64,000 nucleotides of DNA from Streptomyces sp. NBC_00557 (GTDB lineage: Bacteria; Actinomycetota; Actinomycetes; Streptomycetales; Streptomycetaceae), in assembly GCF_036345995.1 (NCBI RefSeq), contig NZ_CP107796.1, positions 1,488,001 through 1,552,000 of the forward strand, read 5' to 3'. Positions 1,055-18,129 of the stretch are shown piece after piece. The stretch's first letter is position 1; each line of letters opens with the position of its first letter. Made by a program: the position numbers and the translations under genes. A model generated the notes under the pieces. It worked only from the letters and a program-made list of their open reading frames with translations. It was not told the DNA's origin and made no database searches.

Positions 1055-1564
1055 ATGACCACCTCGGACGCACCCGCCACCCACCTGCTGATCATCAACG
1101 CCCACGAGCCCCTCGCCTGGGTCCTGGAAAACCAGCGGATGGCCTTTCCCGCCGGCCGCAGCCAGCAGTCCCTCTCCCTCCGAAAGGGCGACGAGCTCCT
1201 GCTGTACACCACACGCGGCTGCTTCGGAAATCCGACCCGGGACCTCGGACGCGTGATCGGCCTGGCCACCATCACCAGCGAGGTCCATACCCTGGACGCC
1301 CCCGTCGTCTTCCAGGAGCGCCGCTTCACCGAAGGGTGCCGGCTGCGCGTCCACGGTCTCACGCCCTTCCGCGAGGGCGTCGTCCTGCGCGATCTCGTCA
1401 ACGATCTCCAGGTTTTCCCCGACCCCGCTCACTGGAGTTTCCGCATGCGCCGGGCCTCGCTCCGGCTGCCGGACGCCGACGCGGCCCTGATCAAGCGGGA
1501 GCTGCAGCCGCTCCTGAAGCCCTACGGCTCAGTGGTGGGTGACTACTCCCTCAAACGCCGGTAA
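1055..1564 (+). CDS. EVE-like (PUA-superfamily) domain protein
   Basis: A 169-residue soluble protein starting at ATG 1055, with AAGGAC about 10 nt upstream. The pattern THLLIINAHEPLAWVL, then KGDELLLYTTRGCFG and GRVIGLATITSEV matches the EVE/YTH-like PUA fold, whose known members bind modified bases in DNA. The product alone has no nuclease or helicase motif. It sits 72 nt after the RAMA gene and about 330 nt before mcrB, whose product carries its own EVE-like domain. This suggests a stand-alone reader for modified phage DNA. The fold assignment is by pattern and needs a profile or structure search. Confidence 0.6.
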   Translation: MTTSDAPATHLLIINAHEPLAWVLENQRMAFPAGRSQQSLSLRKGDELLLYTTRGCFGNPTRDLGRVIGLATITSEVHTLDAPVVFQERRFTEGCRLRVHGLTPFREGVVLRDLVNDLQVFPDPAHWSFRMRRASLRLPDADAALIKRELQPLLKPYGSVVGDYSLKRR

Positions 1565-1890
1565 CGGGGCGGCCTACGCTACGACAAGGCGCCACGACAC
1601 CGCCGTCCGTCCAGTGGTCGTCACGGGCGGCGGTCTCACCCGCCCGGCAGCGGAGTTCGCCGACAAGGCCAAGGCGTACGCCTTTCACCTGGGCCGGACG
1701 ACAGGCAGGCTGACCCCACTCAACTCCCGCGCTCATGAGGTGTCGCTGCCCACCGAAGCACCCGGTACGCGGGAGCTCGAACCCTGGTGACCGCACAGCC
1801 GGGACGGGACGGGCTCCACCGGGGCTCCCCGTTCCGGCACCGGCCACGGAGTTCCCCAGCCCAGCCCCCGGGTGCCGATGATCCGGCATC
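1565..1890. other. Intergenic gap before mcrB
   Basis: 326 nt between the EVE gene and mcrB. An 83-codon open frame overlaps this stretch but starts inside the EVE gene, has no ribosome binding site and resembles nothing I know, so it is not called. I see no hairpin or repeat. The mcrB promoter presumably lies here. Confidence 0.5.
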
Positions 1891-4002
1891 ATGACCTTCA
1901 TGGCGGACGAACCGGACCTGCAGGCGGCAGCAGCGCAATTCGACCGAAGCACGGTGACGGAGGCCGAGAGGGCCGCCGAAGACGAACGCAAGCAGGTGCT
2001 GTCGCAGTTCCCCCTGGAAGAGTGGGCGACGATGCCCTTGTCGCGCTACGCCTTGGGGCAGCCCGCACCTTCCGCGGACGGACCGACGTACTGCCGGCTG
2101 CTGCAGTTCGGTACCCCGAACCTCGGCAGCATCAAGGGCGGCAGCGCCGCGAAGCACATCATGTACTACCACAACTCCGGCGAGTGGCGACTGGCCGCCC
2201 CGCTGCGTGGGATGGAGCCGCAGGAAGCGTGGGAGGCACTGCGCGGGCAGTTCGTGCGAGCCTTCGAGGCCGTGGGTGCCGGGTACTTCGACGCTGTGGA
2301 CGACTTGGAGGTGCTGCGCTTCGGACCGACACTGGTGACCAAGTCCCTGGCCACATACTTCCCCGAGCATTTTCTGCCCATCTACGCGGCCGAGCACCTG
2401 CGCCGGTTCATCACCCTGCTCGGAGGCGCCGCCCAGAGCGATGCACCGGCCTGGAGCAACAACCGTCGTCTGCTGGAACTCGTCCGCTCCCGCCCGGAGT
2501 TCGACGGATGGAGCGGGCAGGAGGTCATGCGCTTCCTGTACCTGAGATTCGATCCGCGCCCGCGGCAGAACACGATCTGGAAGATCGCCCCTGGTGAGCG
2601 CGGCCGGCTGTGGGAGGAATGCCGTGACGGCGGGGTGATCCGCGTCGGGTGGGACGAGCTCGGTGATCTGGGTCAGTACCAGAGCGACACCGAGCTCAAG
2701 CAGGCGCTCGACGCGCGCTGGCCGCGCAGCAGCGGAGGCAGCCTGACACTTGCCCGGCGGTTGCTCGCCTTCCGGGACCTGGAGCCGGGAGACCGGATCG
2801 TCGCCAACCGCGGCACGGACGAGGTCCTCGCGACCGGCACCGTCAGCGGGAGTTACCGCTTCGAACCCGGCTATGCCGAATACCGGCACGTCGTTCCGGT
2901 GGCGTGGGACGTTTCGCACGCACGGAAGTTGTCGGAGCCGCAACACGGTTGGCGGTCCACGTTCGCCAAGGTCGACGCGGCCTTTTTCGCGCAGATCTCC
3001 GCGGGTCTTGCAGTTCCGGGCACACAACCCGCGCAGTCACACGTGGGTGATCCCGTCATGCTGCCCGAGGACGTCGAGAGCGTACTGGAGGCCCTGGAGC
3101 GCAAGGGGCAGGTGATCCTGCACGGGCCTCCAGGGACGGGCAAGACCCGGCTCGCGCTCGGCACCGCCCTTGCCCTCACCGGCCGGGCGGACGCTCTGAG
3201 TTCTCCGCCTGAGGAGCGCGCAGCCGCCCATGCGGAGATGTTGCGGGCCGGTCGTGTCCACATGGTGACCTTCCATCCCTCCTACGGATACGAGGACTTC
3301 GTCGAGGGCTTCAAACCGGACATGAACGTCACGGGCCCGGGACTGGCTCTCGCGCTCATCGACGGTGTGTTCCACACACTGTGCGCCCAGGCCTCTGCCC
3401 GCCCGGACGAGAAGTTCCTCCTGATCATCGACGAGATCAACCGAGGTGACCTGCCGCGCATCTTCGGCGAGTTGGTGACGCTCCTCGAACTCGACAAGCG
3501 CGGCCTGCCCCTCACGCTGCCCGTCAGTCGACGCACGTTCTCCGTACCGCCGAACGTGCGGATCATCGGGACCATGAACACGGCGGACCGCAGCATCAGC
3601 CACCTGGACGCCGCCGTCCGCCGCCGCTTCGCGTTCCTGCCGATCGACCCCGACCCGGATGTCGTGTCCGGCACCGTCGGTCCACTGGACCTGGCGCAGT
3701 TCTTCGAGTCCCTCAACACCCGGATCGCCCGGCACCTCGACGCCGACCATCAGATCGGGCACGCCTACCTGCTCCGCGACGGCGAGCCGATCGCCACCGA
3801 GGACGACCTGGCCGCCGCCTTCCACCACGAGGTGATTCCGCTGCTGGAGGACTACTGCCTCGGTCGCGCCGACCTGCTGCACCGCATCCTCGGCGGCCTC
3901 GTCGACCCGGACACCGGGCGCCCCGCGCTGATGTCGCCGCAGGACCTCGTCGCCGCGCTGGCGAGCGAGTTCACCAGTGGTACACCGGGTCCCGATGCCT
4001 GA
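1891..4002 (+). CDS. mcrB: McrB-type AAA+ GTPase with internal EVE-like domain
   Basis: 703 residues; the NTP-driven translocase half of a type IV modification-dependent restriction system. The AAA+ domain occupies roughly residues 395-660. It has Walker A GPPGTGKT (about 411), Walker B LLIIDEINRGD (about 510) and the McrB signature MNTADRS (about 561). Residues 228-362 (IWKIAPGERGRLWEE..., GDRIVANRGTDEVLATGTV) look like an EVE domain, a modified-base reader. Residues 1-225 are an uncharacterised N-terminal module. The stop overlaps the mcrC start, so the two are co-translated. ATG 1891 was used; ATG 1900 is equally possible, and neither has a clear ribosome binding site. Confidence 0.9.
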   Translation: MTFMADEPDLQAAAAQFDRSTVTEAERAAEDERKQVLSQFPLEEWATMPLSRYALGQPAPSADGPTYCRLLQFGTPNLGSIKGGSAAKHIMYYHNSGEWRLAAPLRGMEPQEAWEALRGQFVRAFEAVGAGYFDAVDDLEVLRFGPTLVTKSLATYFPEHFLPIYAAEHLRRFITLLGGAAQSDAPAWSNNRRLLELVRSRPEFDGWSGQEVMRFLYLRFDPRPRQNTIWKIAPGERGRLWEECRDGGVIRVGWDELGDLGQYQSDTELKQALDARWPRSSGGSLTLARRLLAFRDLEPGDRIVANRGTDEVLATGTVSGSYRFEPGYAEYRHVVPVAWDVSHARKLSEPQHGWRSTFAKVDAAFFAQISAGLAVPGTQPAQSHVGDPVMLPEDVESVLEALERKGQVILHGPPGTGKTRLALGTALALTGRADALSSPPEERAAAHAEMLRAGRVHMVTFHPSYGYEDFVEGFKPDMNVTGPGLALALIDGVFHTLCAQASARPDEKFLLIIDEINRGDLPRIFGELVTLLELDKRGLPLTLPVSRRTFSVPPNVRIIGTMNTADRSISHLDAAVRRRFAFLPIDPDPDVVSGTVGPLDLAQFFESLNTRIARHLDADHQIGHAYLLRDGEPIATEDDLAAAFHHEVIPLLEDYCLGRADLLHRILGGLVDPDTGRPALMSPQDLVAALASEFTSGTPGPDA

Positions 4003-5251
4003 TCGCACCGAGGTACGGATCGGGGAGTACGGCTCAGCCCTGCTGGCGTACTCACAGCTCACGCCCCGTGACGTCAAGCGTCTGCGTGCCCTGCAGGCGC
4101 ACGGTCGTCTCGGCTTGGACCAGACCCCGACAGGATGGCGGCTCAAGGCCGGTGCGACGGTCGGCCTACTGGTCCTCGACCGCGTCCGTCTGGTCATGGA
4201 GCCCAAGTTCGCCCTTCCCGGCGATCGGCTCATGGACTGGCTGGCATACGCCCTCGGTGCGCCGGCTCCGCTTCCGGTGGCGTCACGGCACTGGGCCACC
4301 GGCCCGGAGGGCTACGCCGACCTTGTGGCCGCGGCCCTACTGGAGCAGTGCGAGCGACTGCTGCGGGAGGGACTGCGTCGGGACTACGTACGCCGCCAGA
4401 GCCTGGAACCGGTCCTGCGGGGACGGTTGGACGTCGCGGCCCAGGCGACTCTCCGTTACGGACAGCTGGACAAGCTACACATCCGCACCTTCGACCGGGA
4501 GACGGACATCTGGGACAACCGTGTCCTGGGAACCGCGCTGCAGGTGGCCAGCGCCCTGACCACGAGTCCCGACCTGACCCGCGACCTCCACACCATCGCC
4601 GACGCGTTCCCGAAGGCCACGCCTCCCGACGCCGCCCTCCGCGCCCTGGACCGAACCCGGTACACCCCGTTGAACGCCCGCTACCGCGCCGCACACATCT
4701 GGTCCCGGCTGTTGCTGCGCGGCGGCGGCGTGACGGACATCCTCACCGACCGCGGCACCGCGGCGGACGGACTCCTGCTCGCCATGCCCGCTCTCTGGGA
4801 GGCCGTCGTCCGGCGTCTGGTCACCGACGCCGCCGCCCCGCACGGCGGGCGCGGCGTCCCCAGCAGCGGCGCGGCAGGCATCACCGTGCGGGGCGACCTC
4901 GGTATCACCTCTGCCTTCCGGCCGGACGTACTCCTCAGCCTTCCCGACCGGGACCCGACCGTGCGCGCGCTGCTACCGGTGGACGCCAAGTACAAGCGCT
5001 ACGACCGCCACGGCGTCGGCGCCGAAGACGTTCACCAGCTCCTCACCTACAGCGCCGCCTACACCCCCGGCGACGATAGGCGTGCCGTAATCGTCCACCC
5101 CCGCGCCGGTGGGCACTCCTACCGTGCCCTCCGGGTCGACAGCCCGCGCGGGCGCCTCGGAAACATCCATGTCCTCGGCATCGGCACCCACGCACTCCCC
5201 CAGGAGGCGGCGGCATGGGTGGGATCGGTGCTGCCGTTGACCGACGGGTGA
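3995..5251 (+). CDS. mcrC: McrC-type nuclease subunit
   Basis: 418 residues from ATG 3995, which lies 5 nt before the end of the mcrB stop codon (8-nt overlap). The N-terminal part (YGSALLAYSQL..., RLVMEPKFA) is typical of McrC, which docks on the McrB hexamer. The C-terminal PD-(D/E)xK nuclease core is visible as FRPDVLLSLP (Asp about 310) followed by LPVDAKYKRY (Asp about 330, Lys about 332). McrC supplies cleavage for the McrBC complex. The partner overlap and intact catalytic residues suggest a working system. A GTG at 3977 would add six residues but lies deeper inside mcrB. Confidence 0.88.
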   Translation: MPDRTEVRIGEYGSALLAYSQLTPRDVKRLRALQAHGRLGLDQTPTGWRLKAGATVGLLVLDRVRLVMEPKFALPGDRLMDWLAYALGAPAPLPVASRHWATGPEGYADLVAAALLEQCERLLREGLRRDYVRRQSLEPVLRGRLDVAAQATLRYGQLDKLHIRTFDRETDIWDNRVLGTALQVASALTTSPDLTRDLHTIADAFPKATPPDAALRALDRTRYTPLNARYRAAHIWSRLLLRGGGVTDILTDRGTAADGLLLAMPALWEAVVRRLVTDAAAPHGGRGVPSSGAAGITVRGDLGITSAFRPDVLLSLPDRDPTVRALLPVDAKYKRYDRHGVGAEDVHQLLTYSAAYTPGDDRRAVIVHPRAGGHSYRALRVDSPRGRLGNIHVLGIGTHALPQEAAAWVGSVLPLTDG

Positions 5252-5274
5252 TTCTCTCAGTATCTCCGCGGTGC

Positions 5275-6396
5275 TCATGAGGCGACCGTATCCGCGCTCG
5301 GATCCCTGACCAGCTCTGTCTCCGGAATGTGCGCCAGCAGCGGCGGCTCCTTGTCCCCCGCGTATCCCAAGAGCAGCCGGGTGCGGGCCCGGGTGACCAG
5401 GACGTAGTACAGCATCCGCAGACCGGCGCTGGTCGGGTCGTCGCCCGCGTCGAGATGGGTGTCAGGGACGAACACCGTGTCGAACTCCAGGCCCTTGGCA
5501 CTCTTCCGGTTCAGGACGGTGACGCCGGGGCGGGTCAGGTCCAGCGTGCGGTAGCGGCCCGTGCCCTCCCCCACGTAGGTCTGGAGGCGTGAGCTGGGCA
5601 TCAGGCGCTCCAGACGCTCTGTCAGGTCCATCTGGTGCCGTGTGTGGCGGAGGATGACCCCGACGCGCTCACCGGGACGGGTCCCGGCGTACTCGGCGAC
5701 GTGTGCCGCCACCTGCTGTGCGTGGTCATAACGGCGCAGGGTCGGTGTCGGGCCCGCACGGTCCGGGAGAGCCGGCCGGGCTCCGCCGATGTGGAAGCGG
5801 GCTGCCAGGACTGCCACCGGGCGGGTGGTGCGGTGGGTTGCCGTCAGGTCGTGGCGGTTAGGGCCGGTGAGCAGGGAGCCGATCTCGGCGAGCGTGGACT
5901 GGGTGTCCGTGATGCGCTGGCACTCGTCGGCGAAGACGGTCGTACGGGCGCCGATCAGCCGGCACAGCCGGTAGAAGTCCAGCGGCAGGTCCTGGCCCTC
6001 ATCGATCACCAGGAGCGGACCGGGGCGGCGGTACTCAGACGCGGCCACCTGAAAAACGGCTGCCCAGTCGAACCAGCCGTCGCCCTCCGTGCGCGGAGCC
6101 GGGCGGCCCGTACGGGCGCGGTGCCAGGAGTACAACCAGCCGTGGACGGTCGACACGTCCAGGCCCTGGTCCGGCCCGAGGGCCGCGGCCAGTGGCTCGA
6201 GTGACTGGCGGAGCAAATTCGAGCGGGTCAGGAGGGTGACCGGCTCTCCGGTCAGCGCGAGCATCACCGCGCGCTGTACCGCGAGGACGCTCTTGCCCGA
6301 TCCCGGTGGCCCGGTGACCAGATGATGGCCGTCGAAAGGGAGGGAAGCCAGTACGTCCTGCTGGTCCGGGTCCAGCGAGAGAAAGTCCAGTACCAA
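5275..6396 (-). CDS. Small UvrD/Rep-like SF1 helicase, third gene of drmAB operon
   Basis: 373 residues, starting with TTG at 6396. CAGGAGGAG upstream overlaps the drmB stop and fits as the ribosome binding site. Superfamily 1 motifs are in order: Walker A GPPGSGKS (about 31), motif II VIDEGQDL (about 130), THRTT as motif IV, KSAKGLEFDTVFV as motif V and YVLVTRARTRLL as motif VI. It is very short for a UvrD-type enzyme and lacks the usual 1B/2B insert domains. It begins 6 nt after drmB, in the position where drmC (a phospholipase D-type nuclease) sits in described DISARM systems. No nuclease motif is visible. It ends 23 nt from the convergent mcrC stop. Confidence 0.85.
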   Translation of the reverse strand: MVLDFLSLDPDQQDVLASLPFDGHHLVTGPPGSGKSVLAVQRAVMLALTGEPVTLLTRSNLLRQSLEPLAAALGPDQGLDVSTVHGWLYSWHRARTGRPAPRTEGDGWFDWAAVFQVAASEYRRPGPLLVIDEGQDLPLDFYRLCRLIGARTTVFADECQRITDTQSTLAEIGSLLTGPNRHDLTATHRTTRPVAVLAARFHIGGARPALPDRAGPTPTLRRYDHAQQVAAHVAEYAGTRPGERVGVILRHTRHQMDLTERLERLMPSSRLQTYVGEGTGRYRTLDLTRPGVTVLNRKSAKGLEFDTVFVPDTHLDAGDDPTSAGLRMLYYVLVTRARTRLLLGYAGDKEPPLLAHIPETELVRDPSADTVAS

Positions 6397-6402
6397 CGGC
6401 CC

Positions 6403-8253
6403 TTACTCCTCCTGGTCCACCGCGGTCGCACGGGCAGAAGTGATCACGTCCTCGAAGAAGCCGGGGACCTCGCCACCGCCGACCACGAGCACCCGGTCCA
6501 GGAGGGTGTTGCCCGTCTCGCAGCTGGTCTCCGGGAGCAGGGCGCAGGCGTGGCAGGCACCCCGGTTGAGGTTGCCGAAGCCCTGCCCGGAGTGTTCGGC
6601 GCACAGCGGGTCGGCGGAACACCAGGCCGCGGTCTCGATCATGCGCAGCAGGATCTCGGCGAGGTGCGGCGGCTCGCCCTGCTGGACCAGGCCGCCGAGG
6701 GTGCCGGCCGCGTCGCCGGCCGCCGTGTAGACGAGCAGCCCTGCCTGGTCACGGTCGGCGCGAGCGTAGACACGCTCCCGCAGACTCGCAGTGGTGTAGC
6801 CGGACTCGAACGACAGCTGCCGGATGAGCAGGTGCGCGAGCGTGTGAAGCAAGACGAATCGTGGAGCCAGCACCGTGCCGGTGTGGGCCTCCAGCCGGTC
6901 CTTCTGGAAGCTGCGGTCCAGGTCGGCCCGGATGCCGAACACCCTGTTGCGTACGGCGATATCGCGTTCCCAGTCAGCCAGACGTGCGGCGTCGAGGGTG
7001 AGGAAGACGCCCTCGCCGTAGACCTCGACCGCCGGTAGCCAGCGTAGGCGGCGGGAGGTGTCGGCAGGCACGAAGGTGGCGTCGGGGGCGACCCGGGTGA
7101 ACCCCTGCAGCGCCCGCACCTCCCGCAGCCGGTCGACGAGCACCACCTTGCCGAACCGCTCCCGCAGGGTCGTCCACGGCGCCTGGTTCTCCCCGGCCAG
7201 CCCCAGGTCGGTATGCCGGACCACGAAGTCGCGGGTGGCCTCGGGCGCGGGCGCGGTGAGCGCCGCCCACTCCTCGCTGCTGAGGTCCGGGTAGACCGGC
7301 TTGTCCGGGGCGGCGGCAGTGACGGGCGTGCCGACTTCCTCGGCCAGCAGGGCGTCAAGGAGCGCGTCGTCGGCCTGGGTCTCCTGCTTGATCATCTCGC
7401 GCAGGGCCAGCGCGTTCGGGCCGTCCGGCGCGCTGCACAAGGCGAGCCACAGGGTGCTGGCCCGCACCCGTTCGGCCGCCTCGCCCTCCCAGGCCGGAGG
7501 TCCCTCGGCCTCCGGAATGTCCAGCGCGGAGTGCACCACGGGGTAGTAGAGGTTTCCGGCGGTGCGCTGCACGACCTGAACGGTCTCGCGGCAGTCGACC
7601 CGTTCCGCCGCGCGCTGCCACGGGTTGCGTCCGGAGCAGCGCAGGCCGTGCGTACCGAGGATGTCGAGGAGGTCCCGGGTGCCCCGGCACTTCGGCGCCG
7701 TACAGACGACCGAGAGAGCCTCCAGGCCCGCGGCGCGCTGTTCGACGCGGAAGCTCAGCTGTGCCCGGGAGTCCCGGGACTCCCGGGACGTGCAGGCCTG
7801 ACGGTCCTCAGGGTCCAGCCGGGAGTGCGCCCAGAACCACCAGTCGACGTCGGAGAGGTGTCCCACCTTGCAGATCTGCACGAACCGCATCGGGACGAGC
7901 GGGCGCCTCGGTGAGCACTGGGGGCACTGCGGAGGCGTGCCCGGGGTCTCGTCGGCGATGCGCCAGCGCCGCATGCGGCGGCAGCTGCCGCAGAACAGCC
8001 AGGTCGGGAACCGGATGTACGGAGCTCCGGGCGCATCCTGGTTGTCGTAGCGGTCGTTGAGGGTCGGTGGGGCCGCGAAGAAGCCACTCACTCGCAGCCG
8101 TGCGGCCAGCCGGGGTGAGTCGACCGGCTGCCGTTTGCGCGGCCAGTCCCCGATGCCGGTGGCGACGAACGATTCGCCCTGGATGTCCAGGACGGCCCCG
8201 ACCCCGAACGGCAGTACGGTCTGCGCCTGGCGCACCCTCAGTTTGCGGCTCAC
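6403..8253 (-). CDS. drmB: DrmB-like DUF1998 protein
   Basis: 616 residues from GTG 8253, whose GTGA overlaps the drmA stop; AGGGAG is about 8 nt upstream. The N-terminus (RQAQTVLPFGVGAVLDIQG) is the characteristic DrmB opening. A zinc-ribbon-like FCGSCRRM...CPQC follows at about 85-115, then MRFVQICKVGHLSDVDWWF. The C-terminal DUF1998 region has HTLAHLLIRQLSFESGY and a cysteine cluster (CSADPLC, GACHACALLPETSC). DrmB partners the DrmA helicase in DISARM and together they form the core DNA-binding unit. This is the middle gene of a three-gene operon. No methyltransferase gene is next to it in this window. Confidence 0.87.
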   Translation of the reverse strand: MSRKLRVRQAQTVLPFGVGAVLDIQGESFVATGIGDWPRKRQPVDSPRLAARLRVSGFFAAPPTLNDRYDNQDAPGAPYIRFPTWLFCGSCRRMRRWRIADETPGTPPQCPQCSPRRPLVPMRFVQICKVGHLSDVDWWFWAHSRLDPEDRQACTSRESRDSRAQLSFRVEQRAAGLEALSVVCTAPKCRGTRDLLDILGTHGLRCSGRNPWQRAAERVDCRETVQVVQRTAGNLYYPVVHSALDIPEAEGPPAWEGEAAERVRASTLWLALCSAPDGPNALALREMIKQETQADDALLDALLAEEVGTPVTAAAPDKPVYPDLSSEEWAALTAPAPEATRDFVVRHTDLGLAGENQAPWTTLRERFGKVVLVDRLREVRALQGFTRVAPDATFVPADTSRRLRWLPAVEVYGEGVFLTLDAARLADWERDIAVRNRVFGIRADLDRSFQKDRLEAHTGTVLAPRFVLLHTLAHLLIRQLSFESGYTTASLRERVYARADRDQAGLLVYTAAGDAAGTLGGLVQQGEPPHLAEILLRMIETAAWCSADPLCAEHSGQGFGNLNRGACHACALLPETSCETGNTLLDRVLVVGGGEVPGFFEDVITSARATAVDQEE

Positions 8254-11200
8254 CGGTCGGCTCCCTTCACCGTGACCTGGCACTCGCGGTCGACCGTGCG
8301 CAGGGAGTGCGGGGTCTCCCACAGCCCGCCGTACTGCTCGAAGTTCTTCAGCAGGTTCAGGTGCCCCTTGCCCTGGCTCCGGTAGTACAGGGGCTTGTTC
8401 GCGTCCCGGGCCTCCTGGGCGCGCTGCTGCCATGCGGCGAGCAGCCCGTCGAGTTCGTCCCGCACGGCCTGCGCGGCACGCGGGTCGCTCGCCCGCACCC
8501 AGGCGACGAGTTCCTCGGCGAGCACCACGGCCCCCGGCAGGTGGTCCAGCAGCTCACCCGCCTGGTCCTCCGCCGCGAGTCCGAGACGGTGCCGGACGAG
8601 TACCACCAGCGCGGCGTGCAGGGCGCGCCGGCGGGCCGGCACCGACCAGGGCGTGACACTGGTCGGCTCGACGTGCCGGTACAGCGAGCGGTGGTAGACG
8701 CCGAAGGTCTCGTAGTGCGACCGGTCGCGCGGGCGGGTGGCGTTGAAGAAGGTGACGACGAGACCGGGCACCTTGTCACGTCCCACGCGGCTGGTGGCCT
8801 GGATGTACTCGGCGGTCGTCTTCGGCTGCCCCAGCATCAGCATCAGCGCGAGCCGCTTCACGTCCACACCCACCGAGAGCATGTTGGTGCAGGCGAGGAA
8901 GGAGATGGCACCCGGCTCGGTCCAGGGCTTGGCCAACCGGTCCAGCAGCACGGGCTGTTCGGCTCGGTTCAGGTTGCTGGTGAGTTCCTGCACCTGCTGG
9001 TCGGTCAGCTCCCGGGTACCTGCGGCACCGCCCATGCCGGCGAGCTGGGCGGGGATGTCGTCCCCGGTTGCGGTGATCGTCCGGCCGAGCTCGCGCAGGC
9101 TGTGGTGGTAGGCGACGAGGGTCCAGTACGCGTCCCGGTGCTCCTCCGGCAGTTCGTACGCACCCTGCAGCATCGCCGCCGCGGTGGCGACGGAGGCCCG
9201 GCCCGCGGTGTGCCCCTGGGCCATGACGCCAAGGTAGCGACGGCCCCGCCGGCCGCGATGGCTGGTGTCGGGTTCGGCGAAGTACGAGTGGCGTGCGTCG
9301 AGACCGGCGGACGGGAACAACTGCACGTCCCGGCCGTACAGCCGGCGCACCTGCTCTCCCGAACGACGGATGGTTGCCGTCGACGCCACCACCTTCGGGC
9401 CCCTGCCCCCATGCACGCACAAGGACAGCACCGCCGACTCGTACAGCCCGGTCAGCGAGCCGAGCGGGCCGGTGAGCAGGTGGAGTTCGTCCTGGATCAC
9501 CAAGCTGGGCGGGCGGTTGCCCACTCCTTCGGCGCCGAAGAGCCGTCCGGCCCTGGCCTCCCACGCCAGACGCGCGAACTTGTCGACGGTGCCCAGGACG
9601 AAGGTCGGCGGCCGATCGTAGAGGTGGTCGTCGACGACGGCGACGGGCAGCTCCTTGTGAAAGAAGCACTCGTCGCGCGGACAGTAGAACGCGAAGGACG
9701 TGGCCGTGGCGCGGATGCCGTAGTCGCCCCGGTCCGCGGACTTGGCATGCGGCAGGATGCGCGTACCGCACCAGGGGCAGCGGTCGAGGATGAAGGCCTC
9801 CCCCGGGTGCGCCGCGTCCCGTAGGTCGTCGAAGGCCTGCTCCGCGTCCGCGTAGCGGTTGGGCACCGTGGTGTCGCCGACCCACAGGCCGATGGAGAAC
9901 GGTTCGCTGCCGAGCCGGCGCTCGTCCGGGCGGCGCAGCCGTTCCAGAGCGCAGACCATGGTGGCGGCCCGCTGGAACTGCTGGGTGGTGAGCAGGCTCA
10001 GGGTGTAGCGGCTGAGTACGGCGGTACCGCCGCCGTACTCCTGGAAGCGGCGCAGCACCATGACGAACGCGGCCAGCAGCAGGTAGGCCTCGGTCTTGCC
10101 GCCGCCCGTGGGAAACCAGATCAGGTCGACGGTGTCCCGGTCGGGGTGGCTGGGATCCACCGTGCCGTCCAGCGCCAGCAGGAAGAAGGCCAACTGGAAG
10201 GGACGCCACGCCGCTTCCGGATCGGGGTCGGGCTCGAGGAGTATGGCCGTGCGGCGTTCCCGGCGCTCACCGGCCTGATCGCGTGCACTGTGTCGCATCT
10301 GGAGCGCCATGGCCCGGTTCGCGATCCTGAAGGCCGCGAGGATCTCCGGGCGCCGCGGATCGCAGAGCGTCTCGATGCCCGACTCGATGCGCGCGACGGC
10401 GGCCTCGATCCTGGCCAGGATGCGGTCGGCGGCCGAACGTCCCCAAGGCGGGACGTCGAGACTGCACTGCTCCTCGTACCAGGCCCGATAGCCGGCAGCG
10501 AACGCGCGAAGTTCCTCACGCAGGTCGCCGACGGCCACCTGGTCGTCCGCGAGACGGGCCAGCCGCAGGACGGGAAGATCGGTCGGCCCGGCGGCCCGGA
10601 CGTCGGGAACATCGACGTGCGGCAGCAGCTCGGTCTTCAGACCCACCACTCGCCCGTCGGCGAGCACCTCTCCGACCGCGCATCCGTGACCGATGGCGTA
10701 GGTGCGGACGTGGCGGTACTGCAGGCGCAGCTCCTGCTCCTCCTCGTCCCGGCTGATCAGCGTGATGCTGGGGTACTGACGGATCCGGCCGCCAGGCACG
10801 GTGACACCCAGGCACGCCTGGAACAGCATGCGGTCCCAGGCGGGTGTGCGACTGTCCTCGTCACCGGCCCGAACGGCGTTCGCCAGGCCCACGGTGACGA
10901 GGTGCCCTTCGCTGAACGGCCGCCAGTGCACGGTCAGTTCACCCCGCCCGTCGAAGACCTTTTTCGGGTTGTCGTCCTTGGGCCCGAGGGGGATGGTCTC
11001 CTCGGGCAGCGGCTCGCGCCGCCACTGCCGGGCCCGTTCCCCCTGTTCGGTGAGGTAGCGGGCCGCGGAGCAGGTGACCTGAAGTTCCGTGGCGTCGGTG
11101 TAGAAACTGATGCCCAGTGAGGAGGGCAGCCAGGAGTTGACGGAGGGCAGCGGGTCGACGGCCGGGTTCGTGTCCTCGCGGGCCTCCTCCGTTCCACGGC

Positions 11201-11384
11201 CCTCGTCCTCGTCGTCCATGTCGCCCACCAGGCGCAGCTGCCCGTGCAGGTCCGCATCGCGTGGGTAGAGGGTGCCGACGAGGTACTGGCGGTCGGGCGG
11301 GAACAGCAGGACCTCACGTTCACCGTCCGCCGGACCCATCAGCTGCCCGCGCAGGTACGCGGTCAACTCGTCCCGTGGATCCAT
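8250..11384 (-). CDS. drmA: DrmA-like DISARM helicase
   Basis: 1044 residues. Motifs are in order: WFPTGGGKTEAY (Walker A, about 425), a zinc-binding insert with CPWCGTR and FYCPRDECFF, IQDELHLLTGPLGSL (DELH box, about 633), VASTATIRRSG (motif III), and a C-terminal helicase domain with SVGVDVKRLALMLMLGQP and QATSRVGRDK (about 867). This matches DrmA, the SF2-type helicase of DISARM anti-phage systems. Adjacent ATG codons lie at 11387 and 11384; AAGGGGG upstream gives better spacing to 11384. It is divergent from the sigma-like gene across 132 nt, so both promoters share that gap. Confidence 0.87.
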   Translation of the reverse strand: MDPRDELTAYLRGQLMGPADGEREVLLFPPDRQYLVGTLYPRDADLHGQLRLVGDMDDEDEGRGTEEAREDTNPAVDPLPSVNSWLPSSLGISFYTDATELQVTCSAARYLTEQGERARQWRREPLPEETIPLGPKDDNPKKVFDGRGELTVHWRPFSEGHLVTVGLANAVRAGDEDSRTPAWDRMLFQACLGVTVPGGRIRQYPSITLISRDEEEQELRLQYRHVRTYAIGHGCAVGEVLADGRVVGLKTELLPHVDVPDVRAAGPTDLPVLRLARLADDQVAVGDLREELRAFAAGYRAWYEEQCSLDVPPWGRSAADRILARIEAAVARIESGIETLCDPRRPEILAAFRIANRAMALQMRHSARDQAGERRERRTAILLEPDPDPEAAWRPFQLAFFLLALDGTVDPSHPDRDTVDLIWFPTGGGKTEAYLLLAAFVMVLRRFQEYGGGTAVLSRYTLSLLTTQQFQRAATMVCALERLRRPDERRLGSEPFSIGLWVGDTTVPNRYADAEQAFDDLRDAAHPGEAFILDRCPWCGTRILPHAKSADRGDYGIRATATSFAFYCPRDECFFHKELPVAVVDDHLYDRPPTFVLGTVDKFARLAWEARAGRLFGAEGVGNRPPSLVIQDELHLLTGPLGSLTGLYESAVLSLCVHGGRGPKVVASTATIRRSGEQVRRLYGRDVQLFPSAGLDARHSYFAEPDTSHRGRRGRRYLGVMAQGHTAGRASVATAAAMLQGAYELPEEHRDAYWTLVAYHHSLRELGRTITATGDDIPAQLAGMGGAAGTRELTDQQVQELTSNLNRAEQPVLLDRLAKPWTEPGAISFLACTNMLSVGVDVKRLALMLMLGQPKTTAEYIQATSRVGRDKVPGLVVTFFNATRPRDRSHYETFGVYHRSLYRHVEPTSVTPWSVPARRRALHAALVVLVRHRLGLAAEDQAGELLDHLPGAVVLAEELVAWVRASDPRAAQAVRDELDGLLAAWQQRAQEARDANKPLYYRSQGKGHLNLLKNFEQYGGLWETPHSLRTVDRECQVTVKGADR

Positions 11385-11516
11385 CATGCCCCCTTGCAGC
11401 GGCCGGTACGTGCACGGCCGTTCCCCACCCGGCGTCCCCACGCCGGGGCCAGGGATCCTAGCGTCGATTCCGGCACGTCAGGGCCAGTTGTCGTATCCCC
11501 GTGGCACAGTCGTCCC

Positions 11517-13520
11517 ATGGCAGGCATGACGCCGGGCTTCCGGGGGGACAGGGAGCAGGGGCTGCGGCTGGCGCTGGGGGCGCTGCTGAGACGGCTGCGA
11601 GAGCTGGCGGCGGACGGAGCGGTGACACGCGAGGAGTTCCTCGCGGCCGCTTCCGGCCTCGGTCTCAGCGACGCCGAACTGGACCGCTTGACAGGCGAGT
11701 TGAAGAAACTGGGCATCAGAGTCGCGGCTCCTCGCCATGCGGCGGCCGAGGTCGGCGGCCGCCCGTCGCCGCTGCGGGCTGCGGCAGTGACCAGGGCAGC
11801 GACGGCGGTCCACACTCCGACGCGGAGCAGGACGGCTCACACCGGCCCGGCCGGGGCGACCGACGTGGGGCGCGCCGCCGAAAACCGGTCGCCCGACCCG
11901 ATCGAACCGACAGTGCGGAGGGAAGATCTCGGCCCGAGGATGACGGCAGTCCTGAAGCTGGCGCAGCGCTACGTCGGCTCTGCCGCCCCTGCCTCTCGTT
12001 TCGTACCGGGACTGGCGCGACTGTGCGGGCTCGACGACAACGAGACCGACCGGCTGGCAGCGGCGCTGGCTGGTCCGGCACACGTGGAGTCGCCGGTACC
12101 GGTCCATCGGCCAACCGAGCCGCGGCAGGCCGGGCACAACGCGACGCACGCGGAACGACCGCGCCCGGCGCCCAGCCGCGACGAGCAGACGAAGCAGGCC
12201 GGGCGGGCAGCCACACCCACGGAGCAGCCCGCGCCGGCGTCCCCGTCGCCCACTGCGCAGCCGCAGCAGGCCGGGCAGAAAGCGAAACGGGGCCTGGAGC
12301 CCTTGCCCGCCATCCCTACCCAGCCTTCCCCACCCGTCAGGGAGAAGCAGCCGGCCGAGATCTCCGCCGCCAGATCACTGCTGGCGGAGCGCCGCTTCCT
12401 GCGCCGCCCGGCCAAACGCATCCTGACGGCACAGGAGGAAACGGGGCTGACCCTTCTGATGCGCGGGTGGCCCACCACCTCACCATCCCCGGAGCCGGCC
12501 GAGGAGGAACTCGCCGCCCTGCCGCGCAGCGACGTCCGCCGCCAGGCCTACGAGGCTCTCGTCGAGCACAACGTGGGCCTTGTCCACGAGCTGCGCAAGA
12601 AGTACACGGGCCAGGGCCTGGAGGACGAGGATCTACTTCACCACGGCGTGCTCGGCCTGATGCACGCGGTCTGCAAGTTCGACCCCGCCCGGGGCTTCAA
12701 GCTCTCGACCTACGCCTACCACTGGATCCGCCAGGCGATGACACGCGCGATCGCGGACTTCGGCAGTGCCATCCGCATTCCGGTGCACCTGCACGAGGAG
12801 ATGCACAAGGTGGCCGCAGCCGAAGCAAAGCTGCATGCGCTGGGCCGTGCAGCCACCAAGGAGGCTGTCGCCGTCGCCACGGGTCTCACCGTGACCCGCG
12901 TAACGGAGATCCGTGGGATCAGCAGGGTGACCGCCTCTCTCGACCGTGAACTGTTCGAGGGCGCCAACCTCGGCGACGCCCTCTCCTACGACCTGCCTTC
13001 CCTCGGGCCCGAAGAGCTGCTGTACCCGCAGTGGTCGCGGGAGGACATCGAGCAACGGCTGCTCGCCAAGCTCGACGTCAAGTCGGCGGACATCCTGCGG
13101 CGGCGCAGCGGCCTGATCGACCAGGAAGTGCAGACCCTCGACGCGATCGGCTCCGTGTACGGCGTCACCAGGGAACGGATCCGACAGCTGGAGACCAAGG
13201 CCCGCAACCGGTTGAAGGAAATCCTCACGGAGGAAGAGCAAACCCCCTCACGCCCCGCCTCCAGGCAGCGGCCGGAGCGTCGCCCACGCACCGCGGAGCC
13301 GCGCCCCCGCGCGTTGCGGCCCGCGGCCGGAAACGACGACTTCTCAGCGCAGGGAGTGGAGCTGGCCGCCCGGCGCATGGCGTCCCGCCTCGGTCGGACT
13401 GCCCTCATCCGGCAGGCGGGACACCACGGTGCACACATCATCCGTGCGATGGCGGACGGCAGACTCTCCGGTTCGGCGGCGTCCACACGACTGCGCAGGA
13501 TCCTGCTGGAATACCGATAG
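11517..13520 (+). CDS. Sigma-70-family protein with long N-terminal extension
   Basis: 667 residues from ATG 11517. Residues 1-285 are low-complexity and probably disordered, rich in Ala, Pro, Thr and Gln, after a short helical start. Region 1.2-like sequence (ILTAQEETGL) follows at about 305. Region 2 is at 341-415 (LVEHNVGLVHELRKKY, GVLGLMHAVCKFDPARGFKLSTYAYHWIRQAM). Region 4 is at about 520-570 (TLDAIGSVYGVTRERIRQLETKARNRL). A tail of about 100 residues follows region 4. Core promoter-recognition parts look intact, so it may bind RNA polymerase core. It lies inside the defence island, divergent from drmA and just before the ParE-UvrD gene. A role in island expression, or as part of the defence itself, is inference. 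Confidence 0.8.
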   Translation: MAGMTPGFRGDREQGLRLALGALLRRLRELAADGAVTREEFLAAASGLGLSDAELDRLTGELKKLGIRVAAPRHAAAEVGGRPSPLRAAAVTRAATAVHTPTRSRTAHTGPAGATDVGRAAENRSPDPIEPTVRREDLGPRMTAVLKLAQRYVGSAAPASRFVPGLARLCGLDDNETDRLAAALAGPAHVESPVPVHRPTEPRQAGHNATHAERPRPAPSRDEQTKQAGRAATPTEQPAPASPSPTAQPQQAGQKAKRGLEPLPAIPTQPSPPVREKQPAEISAARSLLAERRFLRRPAKRILTAQEETGLTLLMRGWPTTSPSPEPAEEELAALPRSDVRRQAYEALVEHNVGLVHELRKKYTGQGLEDEDLLHHGVLGLMHAVCKFDPARGFKLSTYAYHWIRQAMTRAIADFGSAIRIPVHLHEEMHKVAAAEAKLHALGRAATKEAVAVATGLTVTRVTEIRGISRVTASLDRELFEGANLGDALSYDLPSLGPEELLYPQWSREDIEQRLLAKLDVKSADILRRRSGLIDQEVQTLDAIGSVYGVTRERIRQLETKARNRLKEILTEEEQTPSRPASRQRPERRPRTAEPRPRALRPAAGNDDFSAQGVELAARRMASRLGRTALIRQAGHHGAHIIRAMADGRLSGSAASTRLRRILLEYR

Positions 13521-13607
13521 CGCCTCGTCGCCGCCGGTCAGGGGCCTGCCGCCCAGCAGGTCCCTGAGTAGGGTGTGCACATCGCACCGCGTGGGGAGGA
13601 CGGTCCG

Positions 13608-15764
13608 TTGCCGCAGCTGGCATTCGCCAACACCTTCTGGGACAAGTACGAGCAGCTGGAGAAGCCGGTCCGGGCAGGGGTACGGAAGGCGATGAAGAAG
13701 TTTCAGCAACTCACCGTCGCCGAACTGCACGCCGACAAGGGTCTGCACCTGGAGTCCGTGGAAAACGCCCGCGATCCGCGCCTGCGGACCATCAGGATCA
13801 CCGACTTCTGGCGGGGCGTCGTCCTCGCGCCCGAGGACGGTGGTGACACCTTCCTCCTGGTGAACGTCGTACAGCACGACAAGGCTTACGAGTGGGCCGC
13901 CAAGCGGCTCTACACGGTCAACACCGCGACGCGTGGCCTGGAGGTCCGCAATGTCGTCGCCATCGAGCAGCTCACCCCGGTGCTGGAGCAGACGGCGGCG
14001 AAGGCACAGGAGCGTTTGTTCGACGGCTTCGCGGACGCATCCCTGACCCGGCTCGGCATCGACGAGGGAACGCTGCGCGCGGCCCGCACCATCACCGACC
14101 AGGCCCAGCTGGAGGCGTTCGCCTCGCTGTTCCCCGAGGACCAGTTCGAGGTACTGCAGTTCCTCGCCGAGGGGTTCGACGAGGACACGGTCTGGCGGGA
14201 GGTCGTAGCCGTGCGCCGTCCTGCGGACGCCGGGCCCTACGACCCCGACGACCTGTCGTCCGCCATCGCCAACACGCACAGCCGTATCACCGTGGTCACG
14301 GGAGCGGAGGAACTGGAGGACATCCTCACCAAGCCGTTCGCCGCCTGGCGCATCTTCCTCCATCCCGCCCAGCGCCGGGTGGCCTACCGGGCGACCTATG
14401 CCGGCCCCGCCCAGGTCACCGGGGGCCCTGGCACGGGCAAGACCGTGGTGGCCCTGCACCGCGTCAAGCACCTGCTCCAGAGGTCGCCGCACGCAGGCAG
14501 GATCCTTCTCACCACGTACACGACCGCGCTGGCGAAGTCCCTCAGGGAGAACCTCGCGCTCCTCCTGGAGGACGAAGCCCTGCTGAAAAGGGTCGATGTC
14601 ACCACGGTCGACGCCCTGGCCCGGGACGTCGTGCGCCGCCGCCGGGGCTCGGTGCCCCGGTTGTGCGACGACGCGGACGAACGCTTCCGCTGGCGCAAGA
14701 TCCAGCAGATGCTCGGCCTGGAGTGGAACGAGCAGTTCCTCTCCCAGGAGTACCGGCACGTGGTGCTCGCCCAGTCGATCTCCACCGAGGACGAGTATCT
14801 GCGAGCGGTGCGGCGGGGCAGGGGCTCGGCCCTGGGTCCGGTCAAGCGGGCGCGGGTATGGCGGGCCATGAAGATGTTCGAGCAGGGCCTGCGCAAGGAC
14901 GGGAAGTGCACCTACCTGCAGTTGTGCGCGGAGGCCGCCAGACTCTTGGGCGAACCAGGAGCAGGTGACCCGCCGTACGCCCATGTCGTGGTCGACGAGG
15001 CGCAGGACCTGCACCCGGTCCAGTGGCGGGTCCTGCGCGGAGCCGTCGCGCCGGGGCCGGACGACCTGTTCATCACGGGGGACCCGCACCAGCGCATCTA
15101 CGACTCGCGCGTCTCGCTGGGTTCTCTCGGTATCCCGGTCGCGGGCCGTTCCAGTCGGCTGCGCATCAACTACCGCAGCACAGAGGAGATCCTCCGCTGG
15201 GCGGCGGCCCTGATGGAGGACGAACCGGTGGAGTCTCTGTCGGGCGACGGCAAGGACTCATTGGCCGGTTACCGTTCCCTCCTGCACGGCCGTAGGCCCG
15301 CCCTGAGGGATTTCGGGAGTGAGGACGCCGAACTGAGCGCGGTCGTCGCGAGGATACGTGAGTGGGTCGCAGGCGGCGCGGCGCCGGCGGAGATCGCGGT
15401 AGCCGCCCGGTTCCACCAGACGCTGGACAAGGTCAAGGCGCGACTGGAACGCGCCGGGCTGCCCGCGGCTCTGGTCAGGGAGGGGCCAGCCCAGCAGGAC
15501 GTGGGGGTCCGGCTGGCCACTCTGCACGCGATGAAAGGCCTGGAATTCCGCTGCGTCGCGGTGATCGGCGTGACGGCAGGCGCCTTCCCGTTCCCGCCAG
15601 CTGTCACACCACCGGATGTGGACCGACTGCAGCACGAGGCGGACATGCTGGCCGAACGCTGCCTCCTCTTCGTGGCCTGCACGCGCGCCCGCGAGGAGCT
15701 GTATGTCTCGTACAGCGGCCAGGTCAGCCGATTCCTGCCGGCGGCATCCGAGGCGGGAGGCTGA
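13608..15764 (+). CDS. UvrD-type SF1 helicase with N-terminal ParE/RelE-like domain
   Basis: 718 residues from TTG 13608, chosen because GGGGAGGA ends 7 nt upstream; a GTG at 13575 would add 11 residues. Residues 1-100 resemble a ParE/RelE toxin-fold domain (WDKYEQLEKPVRAGVRKAM, LRTIRITDFWRGVVLAP, NVVQHDKAYEWAAK). SF1 helicase motifs follow: GGPGTGKTVVAL (about 280), VVDEAQDLHPVQW (motif II), RLRINYRSTEEIL, LHAMKGLEFRCVAVIG (motif V) and FVACTRAREELYVSY (motif VI). This domain combination is a recognised helicase family of unknown role. It is transcribed with, or just after, the sigma-like gene. Confidence 0.85.
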   Translation: MPQLAFANTFWDKYEQLEKPVRAGVRKAMKKFQQLTVAELHADKGLHLESVENARDPRLRTIRITDFWRGVVLAPEDGGDTFLLVNVVQHDKAYEWAAKRLYTVNTATRGLEVRNVVAIEQLTPVLEQTAAKAQERLFDGFADASLTRLGIDEGTLRAARTITDQAQLEAFASLFPEDQFEVLQFLAEGFDEDTVWREVVAVRRPADAGPYDPDDLSSAIANTHSRITVVTGAEELEDILTKPFAAWRIFLHPAQRRVAYRATYAGPAQVTGGPGTGKTVVALHRVKHLLQRSPHAGRILLTTYTTALAKSLRENLALLLEDEALLKRVDVTTVDALARDVVRRRRGSVPRLCDDADERFRWRKIQQMLGLEWNEQFLSQEYRHVVLAQSISTEDEYLRAVRRGRGSALGPVKRARVWRAMKMFEQGLRKDGKCTYLQLCAEAARLLGEPGAGDPPYAHVVVDEAQDLHPVQWRVLRGAVAPGPDDLFITGDPHQRIYDSRVSLGSLGIPVAGRSSRLRINYRSTEEILRWAAALMEDEPVESLSGDGKDSLAGYRSLLHGRRPALRDFGSEDAELSAVVARIREWVAGGAAPAEIAVAARFHQTLDKVKARLERAGLPAALVREGPAQQDVGVRLATLHAMKGLEFRCVAVIGVTAGAFPFPPAVTPPDVDRLQHEADMLAERCLLFVACTRAREELYVSYSGQVSRFLPAASEAGG

Positions 15765-16195
15765 GTCTTCCGCTGCACGGGCTCACAGCACGATGGTTGG
15801 TGGAGTCAACGAAAGGCAGACGAGTCGGGCTGTACGCCGGGTTCAGTCCGACCGGGAATGGACCAACGGGGCCCACAGCCAGCCGCTTACCCAAACGATC
15901 ATTGGCCGACACAGGACGTCAAAATCGACGTGCGACATCTCTATACGGGATGTGTCAGCACTGACGAGTCACCTGGCCACGGCGTCCAACAGCGCATGCC
16001 CCAGCCCGCATCCGAGGGCCGCCCTCCTACACCTCCTGCACGCCTTGGTCGCCGATCCCGTCCAGGCGTGCCCCGAAGCCGGAAACGGCTAGCAAGGGCG
16101 GACCGCTGGCTCTTCTCGCCCATCCGAGGTACGACAGAGCGCCACATAACACCCGCAAAGCGCTCCACGCCTACACCCCGGGGGTCTGACCGGAC
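15765..16195. other. Intergenic gap before the recombinase
   Basis: 431 nt without a supported gene. Plus-strand frames cross it but start inside the helicase gene or lack a ribosome binding site and family resemblance. The stretch is less GC-rich than its surroundings (around 15880-15960). I see no strong dyad. In integrative elements such a region often holds regulatory or excision functions, but nothing specific can be pointed to. Confidence 0.5.
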
Positions 16196-17905: not shown

Positions 17906-17954
17906 AGGGCACTAGCACCTCAAGCTAGCGCGTCTGCCATTCCGCCACCCGGAC
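17870..17954 (-). tRNA. tRNA-Leu (anticodon GAG)
   Basis: Read on the minus strand, the gene starts GTCCGGG at 17954 and ends CTCGGAC plus discriminator A at 17870 (85 nt). The acceptor stem pairs with one G-U. The anticodon stem CTAGC/GCTAG encloses the seven-base loop TTGAGGT, giving anticodon GAG (leucine, CUC codons). The variable arm is long, as expected for a class II tRNA. The T-arm carries GTTCAAGTC. The CCA end is not encoded (CAA follows). The 3' half overlaps the recombinase gene on the other strand. Confidence 0.95.
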
Positions 17955-18129
17955 TAGGTGTGTGTCGCCTTGCGGGGGTGGTCCCCGTGGCGACAGGAAC
18001 AACAATACCAAGGTTTCGGAGTGCGTTTCACCTGCGTATTCCGTCCTGTGGGCGGCGGCCCGCAGGGAGCGGGCCGCCGTGCCGGTGAGGGTGTACGCAT
18101 GGCGAGATCGCGTGTGCGGGCCGTGAGGG

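Follow-up and report, generated by a model that had tools for sequence, protein, structure and literature searches.

Genes at the locus

The stretch of DNA analysed here (the window) comprises 64,000 nt of Streptomyces sp. NBC_00557 (NZ_CP107796.1:1,488,001-1,552,000; own genome labelled G000). Near its left end it carries an operon of drmA, drmB and a small superfamily 1 (SF1) ATPase gene next to a gene for a sigma-70 family protein, and this quartet is the subject of the present work. L-numbers denote genome stretches (loci), G-numbers genomes and C-numbers contigs. The annotated portion of the window consists of eleven frames between 1055 and 19710, which were scanned by profiles. Papers cited by PMC number, and Bell et al., are cited for the available part of their text. 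The core features are:

5275..6396, minus strand: SF1 ATPase, 373 aa, two RecA-like domains only, motifs intact, a HelD-type ATPase head (profiles, solved-chain matches)
6403..8322, minus strand: DrmB, 639 aa from the start that aligns with the relatives, MZB/DUF1998 domain (profiles, tree)
8250..11384, minus strand: DrmA, YprA-type SF2 helicase, 1044 aa (PADLOC, solved DISARM DrmA)
11385..11516: divergent drmA/sigma intergenic region, 132 bp, presumed promoters
11517..13520, plus strand: sigma-70 family protein, 667 aa, N-terminal ~340 aa of its own (Pfam, PADLOC MzaA, solved sigmas)

An initial annotation had described drmA, drmB and a 373-residue helicase gene on one strand, overlapping or 6 nt apart. 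These coordinates hold and the profiles agree: the SF1-DrmB gap is 6 nt, and the DrmB and DrmA genes overlap (DrmA from 8250). The DrmB frame, with its stop side at 6403 on the minus strand, is open to 8433, and the start agreeing with the relatives is 8322. Overlooked at that time were the sigma gene (11517-13520, plus strand), a UvrD-type helicase gene (13575-15764, plus strand) and everything left of position 1.

The DrmA and DrmB homologs in the window are adjacent and co-directional, as in DISARM, and matched PADLOC at 4.1e-203 and 4e-74, respectively. The best solved match of DrmA was the DISARM DrmA 7s9v (8.8e-145), in an alignment that starts at residue 10 of the query, opposite residue 143 of the solved protein. 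Because the alignment begins at residue 143, the window DrmA lacks the N-terminal ~140 residues, and no counterpart of the N-terminal EVE-like domain of class 1 DISARM DrmA (PMC12458937) was found in this alignment. The trigger loop of DISARM DrmA comprises residues 176-232 (PMC9142583), and the stretch aligned with it was, judged by eye, shorter and acidic. No nuclease was recognised in the core genes (sigma, DrmA, DrmB and SF1).

The SF1 protein matched the UvrD_C_2 and AAA_30 profiles. It keeps the motifs GPPGSGKS, DEGQD, ADECQ, SAKGLEF and TRAR. Of 929 proteins of the SF1 family, 120 were listed, and every one of these retains GK[ST] and DE[GA]Q. In a search with an alignment profile, the closest solved chains were 6wvk_H (3.7e-14), labelled DNA helicase IV, which we take to be Bacillus HelD, and 6yxu_H (4.9e-13), labelled RNA polymerase-associated transcription factor HelD. 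UvrD (2.1e-4) and GajB (2e-3) were more distant. The alignment to the HelD-type chains was confined to stretches of the ATPase head. Identification of SF1 as the GajB of Gabija was considered and rejected, as the profile match is weak and no GajA was among the matches listed.

Conservation of the DrmA-DrmB-SF1 triad

Relatives were collected by scanning genome contigs with DrmA as the query; 88 stretches matched a pattern and 34 encode a relative, all from Streptomyces except one Wenjunlia, a set biased to close relatives. The order DrmA-DrmB-SF1 is kept in 34/34, with DrmB-SF1 gaps of -4 to +26 bp. SF1 played no part in the choice of this set, so loci without it could have been included. In a class-wide sample of 394 genomes, profile searches matched DrmB in 59 genomes and SF1 in 19. 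Sixteen of the latter, spread over four family labels and including the own genome, passed a cut of at least 130 bits, and SF1 lies directly beside DrmB in all of them. In G335 (L125) the SF1 match is split in two pieces. The three remaining genomes (at most 61 bits) were taken to hold other UvrD-type proteins. In the search across genomes that the initial annotation had suggested, the triad is thus real and conserved.

One of the sixteen, G242, is a remnant. In its decayed locus L090 (G242:C44:315000-334999) DrmA was not found, and SF1, DrmB and the N-terminus of sigma survive only as fragments. A kinase-ARMADA operon next to these fragments carries a perfect copy of the palindrome described below.

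A DrmB tree of 43 rows, into which 12 of the 34 close loci were taken and from which the L059 fragment was omitted, placed all 26 SF1-bearing rows and one SF1-less row (G380 C64) on one side of a branch with support of 100/99. Several rows are on long branches and the root is for drawing only. Because of row G380 C64, the SF1 label needs two changes on this tree.

Plasmids of Deinococcus gobiensis and of Photobacterium sp. TY1-4 carry the triad as well, and SF1 and DrmB are adjacent in P. damselae too. A fourth gene follows the triad in Photobacterium (L110:15275-16726) and in Deinococcus (L111:12992-14722); these two showed no mutual BLASTP likeness. SF1 had no match in a phage collection.

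The sigma-70 partner and SF1-sigma fusions

The sigma gene is divergent from drmA in the window. Pfam finds regions 2, 3 and 4 between residues 348 and 568 of its product, with region 3 slightly under its cut-off; statements on region 4 rest on Pfam and alignment. The best solved matches were SigB, SigA and HrdB (6e-43 to 5e-41), and the N-terminal ~340 aa are mostly without counterpart in the solved sigmas aligned. A PADLOC match to MzaA (9.6e-34), the sigma factor of the MZA defence system (PMC9523054), is confined to the sigma part of the protein.

A sigma homolog lies near drmA in 34/34 relatives, upstream on the same strand in 32 and divergent in L007 and L024, and accompanies SF1 in all sixteen strong SF1 genomes (the window's own included; N-terminal part only in G242). 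Its position shifts among loci between upstream on the same strand, upstream divergent and downstream, yet the gene is retained. The region 2.4 pattern is matched in 29/35 copies (window plus 34), of which 25 read ATWW. For G380 C64, the sole DrmAB of the SF1 group without an adjacent SF1, no sigma homolog was found in its 20-kb stretch.

All genomes under family label f18 (5/5) encode SF1 and sigma within a single open frame. A protein search returned 13 proteins, 12 of them SF1-sigma fusions, eight of which are named from Frankiaceae genera and one from Nocardia; P0011 holds only the later half of SF1. Their source names refer to a sigma factor, in one case to 'RNA polymerase', and in none to a helicase. 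Neither the Walker A Lys nor the Walker B Glu is retained in the fusions. P0001 as annotated begins past Walker A, and the longer frame in L084 reads GSGMA at this position. Both fusion C-termini that were scanned match MzaB (7e-6 and 2.5e-17). In the Frankiaceae fusion loci scanned, the next gene overlaps and is MzaE/AIPR (L083), and a later gene encodes a C5 methyltransferase (L089, DrmMII profile). DISARM and MZA parts are therefore combined at these loci.

Methyltransferase, ARMADA-type trio and DrmC

The initial annotation had seen no DNA methyltransferase in the window and suggested a methyltransferase-free DrmAB variant in which SF1 replaces DrmC. Neither a methyltransferase nor DrmC was found among the eleven frames scanned (1055-19710), so the first statement holds to the extent of the annotation, but a methyltransferase-free island was rejected once the left flank and the relatives were considered. 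In the left flank (L005, L006), genes for YprA (1753 aa), a BrxHII/DrmD-like protein and a PglX/DrmMI-like methyltransferase lie on the plus strand in the order of ARMADA type I; the trio was assigned by profiles and gene order.

G000:C1:1476148-1480281, plus strand: PglX/DrmMI-like methyltransferase (profile)

This gene ends 7.7 kb left of window position 1 and 13 kb from the SF1 stop. It belongs to the adjoining trio, and no methyltransferase lies within the drmAB operon itself.

Strong homologs of the methyltransferase (E 4.6e-230 or better) are present in the own genome and in 31/34 relatives' genomes, cut or in pieces in G011, G013 and G031. By coordinates, the whole trio is on the DrmB contig in 27/34. 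For the eight of these with distances computed, the methyltransferase is 9.9-17.6 kb from DrmB and the far end of the trio at most 28 kb away. In four relatives (G001, G004, G005 and G032) the methyltransferase is on a contig other than that of DrmB, and in three (G002, G003 and G018; loci L008, L009 and L024) a close homolog is absent. On the S. fungicidicus plasmid p1 a quartet lies without the trio within 20 kb, and no DNA methyltransferase is annotated near it besides a SAM-dependent methyltransferase of unstated substrate. Because of these three relatives and the p1 quartet, the trio can be regarded as linked but not obligatory. Among 12 SF1 regions of the class sample (20-35 kb stretches), the trio was found in G242 only, and G380 C45 has a Pgl-type kinase and a methyltransferase in its place.

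The ARMADA-type YprA carries a fused kinase in the relatives read, and its frames are long enough for an N-terminal kinase domain. A Ser/Thr kinase accompanies YprA at L005:1679-8070 (G000:C1:1466679-1473070) and L015:295-6648, the kinase of the own genome being separate and divergent. The word 'kinase' is absent from the available main text of the ARMADA paper (Bell et al.).

With a single DrmC model (PDLC02588), a search of 35 genomes gave no match adjacent to SF1-DrmAB; the contig of L007 stops just past SF1. Elsewhere, DrmC matched at 1e-3 in 15/35 genomes, six of them at ~1e-20 or better. Inspection of the sequence left of position 1, as the initial annotation had recommended, thus yielded one of the two genes that it named, the methyltransferase, and not the other, DrmC. 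The own genome has a second DISARM-like locus at 3.98 Mb (G000:C1:3983516-3985344), where a DrmB homolog lies next to the genome's best DrmC match.

A palindromic promoter element

An alignment of the intergenic region between kinase-YprA and sigma from 20 loci centres on GTTGAC-N3-GTCAAC. With at most one mismatch, this palindrome lies upstream of sigma in 27/34 loci; L012 and L032 differ from it by at least two letters. Matches total 43 in the 34 loci, compared with 0-3 for each of 20 shuffled-arm controls. TAnnnT follows TTGACN at 17-18 nt in 27/27 cases (18 nt in 19 and 17 nt in 8), against a background frequency of 0.2%. A second copy is located at McrB in 7/8 McrBC-linked loci.

Thirteen further stretches upstream of kinase/YprA, apart from sigma, contained the palindrome in nine cases (seven perfect, two with one mismatch), while each of 50 controls gave 0-1 matches. 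Of the other four, three belong to the own-type lineage and have only GTGAAC-N3-GTCAAC, and one, a second YprA copy with no kinase match, has none. As both carry the palindrome, the quartet seems to be regulated together with the kinase-ARMADA operon in most of these Streptomyces; this reading does not extend to the window's genome.

A -10-like block, TCGTGTACGGTG, was considered as a second regulon motif and set aside, being present in the kinase/sigma region and not clear elsewhere. In L112-L115 and L117 a conserved leader, CTCCCTACGG...GGGGAGG, lies between the promoter and the kinase start and could fold as RNA before the kinase-ARMADA operon.

Other genes of the island

The remaining features assigned in the window are:

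1891..4002, plus strand: McrB-like AAA protein of an McrBC pair convergent with the SF1 operon (37-40% alike to McrB of McrBC-linked relatives)
3977..5251, plus strand: McrC-like protein (23 nt from its end to the SF1 stop)
13575..15764, plus strand: UvrD/GajB-like helicase, 729 aa, with a conserved ~250-aa N-terminal region without recognised fold (profiles)

Homologs of the 729-aa helicase are found next to McrBC at other Streptomyces loci, and in Frankiaceae they are oriented divergently from drmA. To its right, next to an aldehyde dehydrogenase gene, is a large serine recombinase (window 16196-17905), possibly the right end of an integrated element. A Hachiman-like pair (L006:3676-7835; a PDC-M23B/HamB helicase of 1063 aa and a smaller gene) lies between the trio and the McrBC genes. 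The PglX methyltransferase gene is followed by a gene for an HEC-07/NsnC-like protein of 550 aa (L005:15397-17049), with homologs in L027 and L127.

Discussion

The anatomy of the quartet, meaning its gene set, linkage, fusion, motif states and palindrome, is well supported, and from it we infer a possible mechanism of coupling to RNA polymerase. The reading we favour, tentatively and at somewhat less than an even chance, is a DISARM-like variant with a four-gene core (sigma-70, DrmA, DrmB and a HelD-type SF1), in which the sigma/HelD-like module would couple DrmAB to RNA polymerase. A DISARM-like defence acting through the transcription machinery is suggested because the operon carries a HelD-like motor beside a sigma factor. 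Stalled RNA polymerase is recycled by HelD, which also enters a complex with the polymerase and sigma-A (PMC11464796).

DrmAB of Serratia DISARM prefers single-stranded DNA and 5' overhangs (PMC9142583), and DrmAB here could recognise foreign DNA of single-stranded or 5'-overhang character. Sigma and SF1, acting as one unit, could engage RNA polymerase or promoter DNA and position DrmAB, which would thereby be placed at transcription-initiation bubbles on invading DNA. SF1 might then strip or block the transcription complex, after which DrmAB would unwind the DNA. As the core shows no recognised nuclease, cutting would have to come from elsewhere, such as McrC, the nuclease end of the ARMADA YprA (Bell et al.) or host nucleases. 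In the window's genome, the methyltransferase of the ARMADA-type trio, 13 kb away, may provide self/non-self marking.

A group in which DrmAB goes together with a sigma factor and a HelD-like ATPase, and in which these two partners are naturally fused in some lineages, would give a concrete and testable link between DrmAB and RNA polymerase, and bears on how DISARM distinguishes phage DNA from self and on what befalls that DNA. The common promoter element further suggests that DISARM-like, ARMADA and McrBC modules could be deployed as one regulated arsenal, as opposed to being independent island neighbours. A more far-reaching version, in which sigma-70 and the HelD-type ATPase bring DrmAB to the bubbles and the DISARM, ARMADA and Frankiaceae MZA parts form one co-regulated super-system of DISARM-family immunity, is rather unlikely to hold as a whole.

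Several observations weigh against the coupling of DrmAB to RNA polymerase. The long arms with which HelD enters the RNA polymerase channels (PMC7749165) were not found in the 373-aa window SF1 by solved-chain alignment; because it holds the ATPase head alone, its likeness to HelD is not proof of RNA polymerase binding. The loss of ATPase motifs in the fusions implies that motor activity of SF1 is not always needed. Region 2.4 of sigma reads STYAYHWIRQ in the window and L007, compared with STYATWWIRQ, and the sigma match ends before region 4 in L026, L028 and L127. No sigma homolog was found in the stretches searched around the Deinococcus and Photobacterium triads, so sigma is not a universal partner. 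The drmA/sigma intergenic region of the window has no GTTGAC-N3-GTCAAC within two mismatches, and L007 lacks the palindrome too. The anti-phage role of the quartet is itself predicted from its genes, and a sigma gene beside a defence operon could be a mere local regulator.

This last explanation is the strongest competitor and is possible, if on the unlikely side. Here, sigma would be a local transcription factor only, turning on the drmAB-SF1, kinase-ARMADA and McrBC operons at infection, with SF1 an accessory motor of DrmAB. It fits the predominance of same-strand upstream sigma genes (32/34, with 2/34 divergent), the region 2.4 pattern in most copies, the region 4 that Pfam finds in the copies scanned and the element common to sigma, kinase-YprA and McrB. 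However, fusion of SF1 to sigma, at times with an MzaB-like end and an overlapping AIPR gene after it, would be unusual for a pure regulator, and promoters with ordinary -35/-10 spacing and a repressor-type palindrome need no special sigma.

The view of the initial annotation, that SF1 is an effector in DrmC's stead within a methyltransferase-free DISARM, is improbable. SF1 does directly follow DrmB in 34/34 relatives and no DrmC match lies beside the locus in 35 genomes, so this part of the observation stands. DrmC is, however, dispensable and often missing in DISARM (PMC9142583), and in loci without SF1 it was matched by just 1/10 genes near DrmB (crude calls within 1.5 kb, three on the opposite strand). 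The closest associate of SF1 is sigma, the fusions are without ATPase motifs, and neighbours bearing a methyltransferase are linked in 27/34.

Slightly less probable again is that sigma-SF1 serves as a bait or sensor for phage attack on the host sigma or RNA polymerase and then releases DrmAB or its partners. A sigma factor is indeed part of the MZA defence system (PMC9523054), and for most of the N-terminal ~340 aa of the window sigma the aligned solved sigmas show nothing comparable. The DNA-reading sigma regions are nevertheless retained in most copies and would be needless in a pure bait. That ordinary DISARM-like genes happen to lie beside unrelated genes is very improbable: the genes do lie in a defence island, with an ARMADA-type trio, a Hachiman-like pair and McrBC, but the gene coupling, the 34/34 and 16/16 linkage, the fusions, the DrmB group and the shared element all speak against chance.

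Class 1 DISARM consists of drmD, drmMI, drmA, drmB and drmC. The window system resembles it in having DrmA and DrmB as separate genes and, in 27/34 relatives, linked DrmMI- and DrmD-like genes, which are inside the ARMADA-type trio. It differs in having no nearby DrmC, in the SF1 and sigma that are constant partners in the actinomycete loci examined, in a DrmA without ~140 N-terminal residues and in a DrmB in its own group. Bell et al. described McrBC-linked DISARM-like cassettes and many uncharacterised DISARM-like classes (PMC11090510, PMC12458937), and the existence of DISARM-like variants is therefore already known. In their cassette McrBC lies beside YprA, DUF1998, SWI2/SNF2 and PglX, the same as in seven relatives here, but an SF1 or sigma partner is not named for it in the available text. 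Literature searches, covering the papers without supplements, found no sigma factor or SF1 partner for DISARM.

The left-flank trio corresponds to ARMADA type I in its YprA, BrxHII and PglX order, but the drmAB operon is a separate unit and most relatives have a Ser/Thr kinase fused to their YprA. Compared with HelD, the window SF1 shares the ATPase head, being nearest to HelD-type solved chains, but is shorter, without long arms, and sits in a defence operon. SF1 and the 729-aa helicase are UvrD-like and weakly matched the profiles of the Gabija GajB and ArmD helicases, but SF1 is smaller and closer to HelD; no GajA partner was among the matches listed for the neighbours scanned. Bell et al. 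describe BrxHII as RapA-like, and RapA is a Swi2/Snf2 ATPase that recycles RNA polymerase (PMC8666675). A parallel between SF1 and the DrmD/BrxHII of other DISARM and ARMADA systems, as RNA polymerase-linked ATPases, would be suggestive only.

MZA (MzaABCDE) shares its sigma factor with the window, where sigma matches MzaA, and the Frankiaceae versions tested resemble it further through an MzaB-like end, MzaE (AIPR) and a C5 methyltransferase. DrmAB and SF1, in contrast, are not named as MZA parts in the available text of PMC9523054. None of MzaB-E was among the matches listed for the window and left-flank genes scanned, G000 had no MzaB at 1e-8, and the SF1 profile found no SF1 in the MZA loci fetched. 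Another type of DISARM-MZA neighbourhood is seen in L107 (G091), where homologs of MzaB and MzaE directly adjoin DrmA and DrmB.

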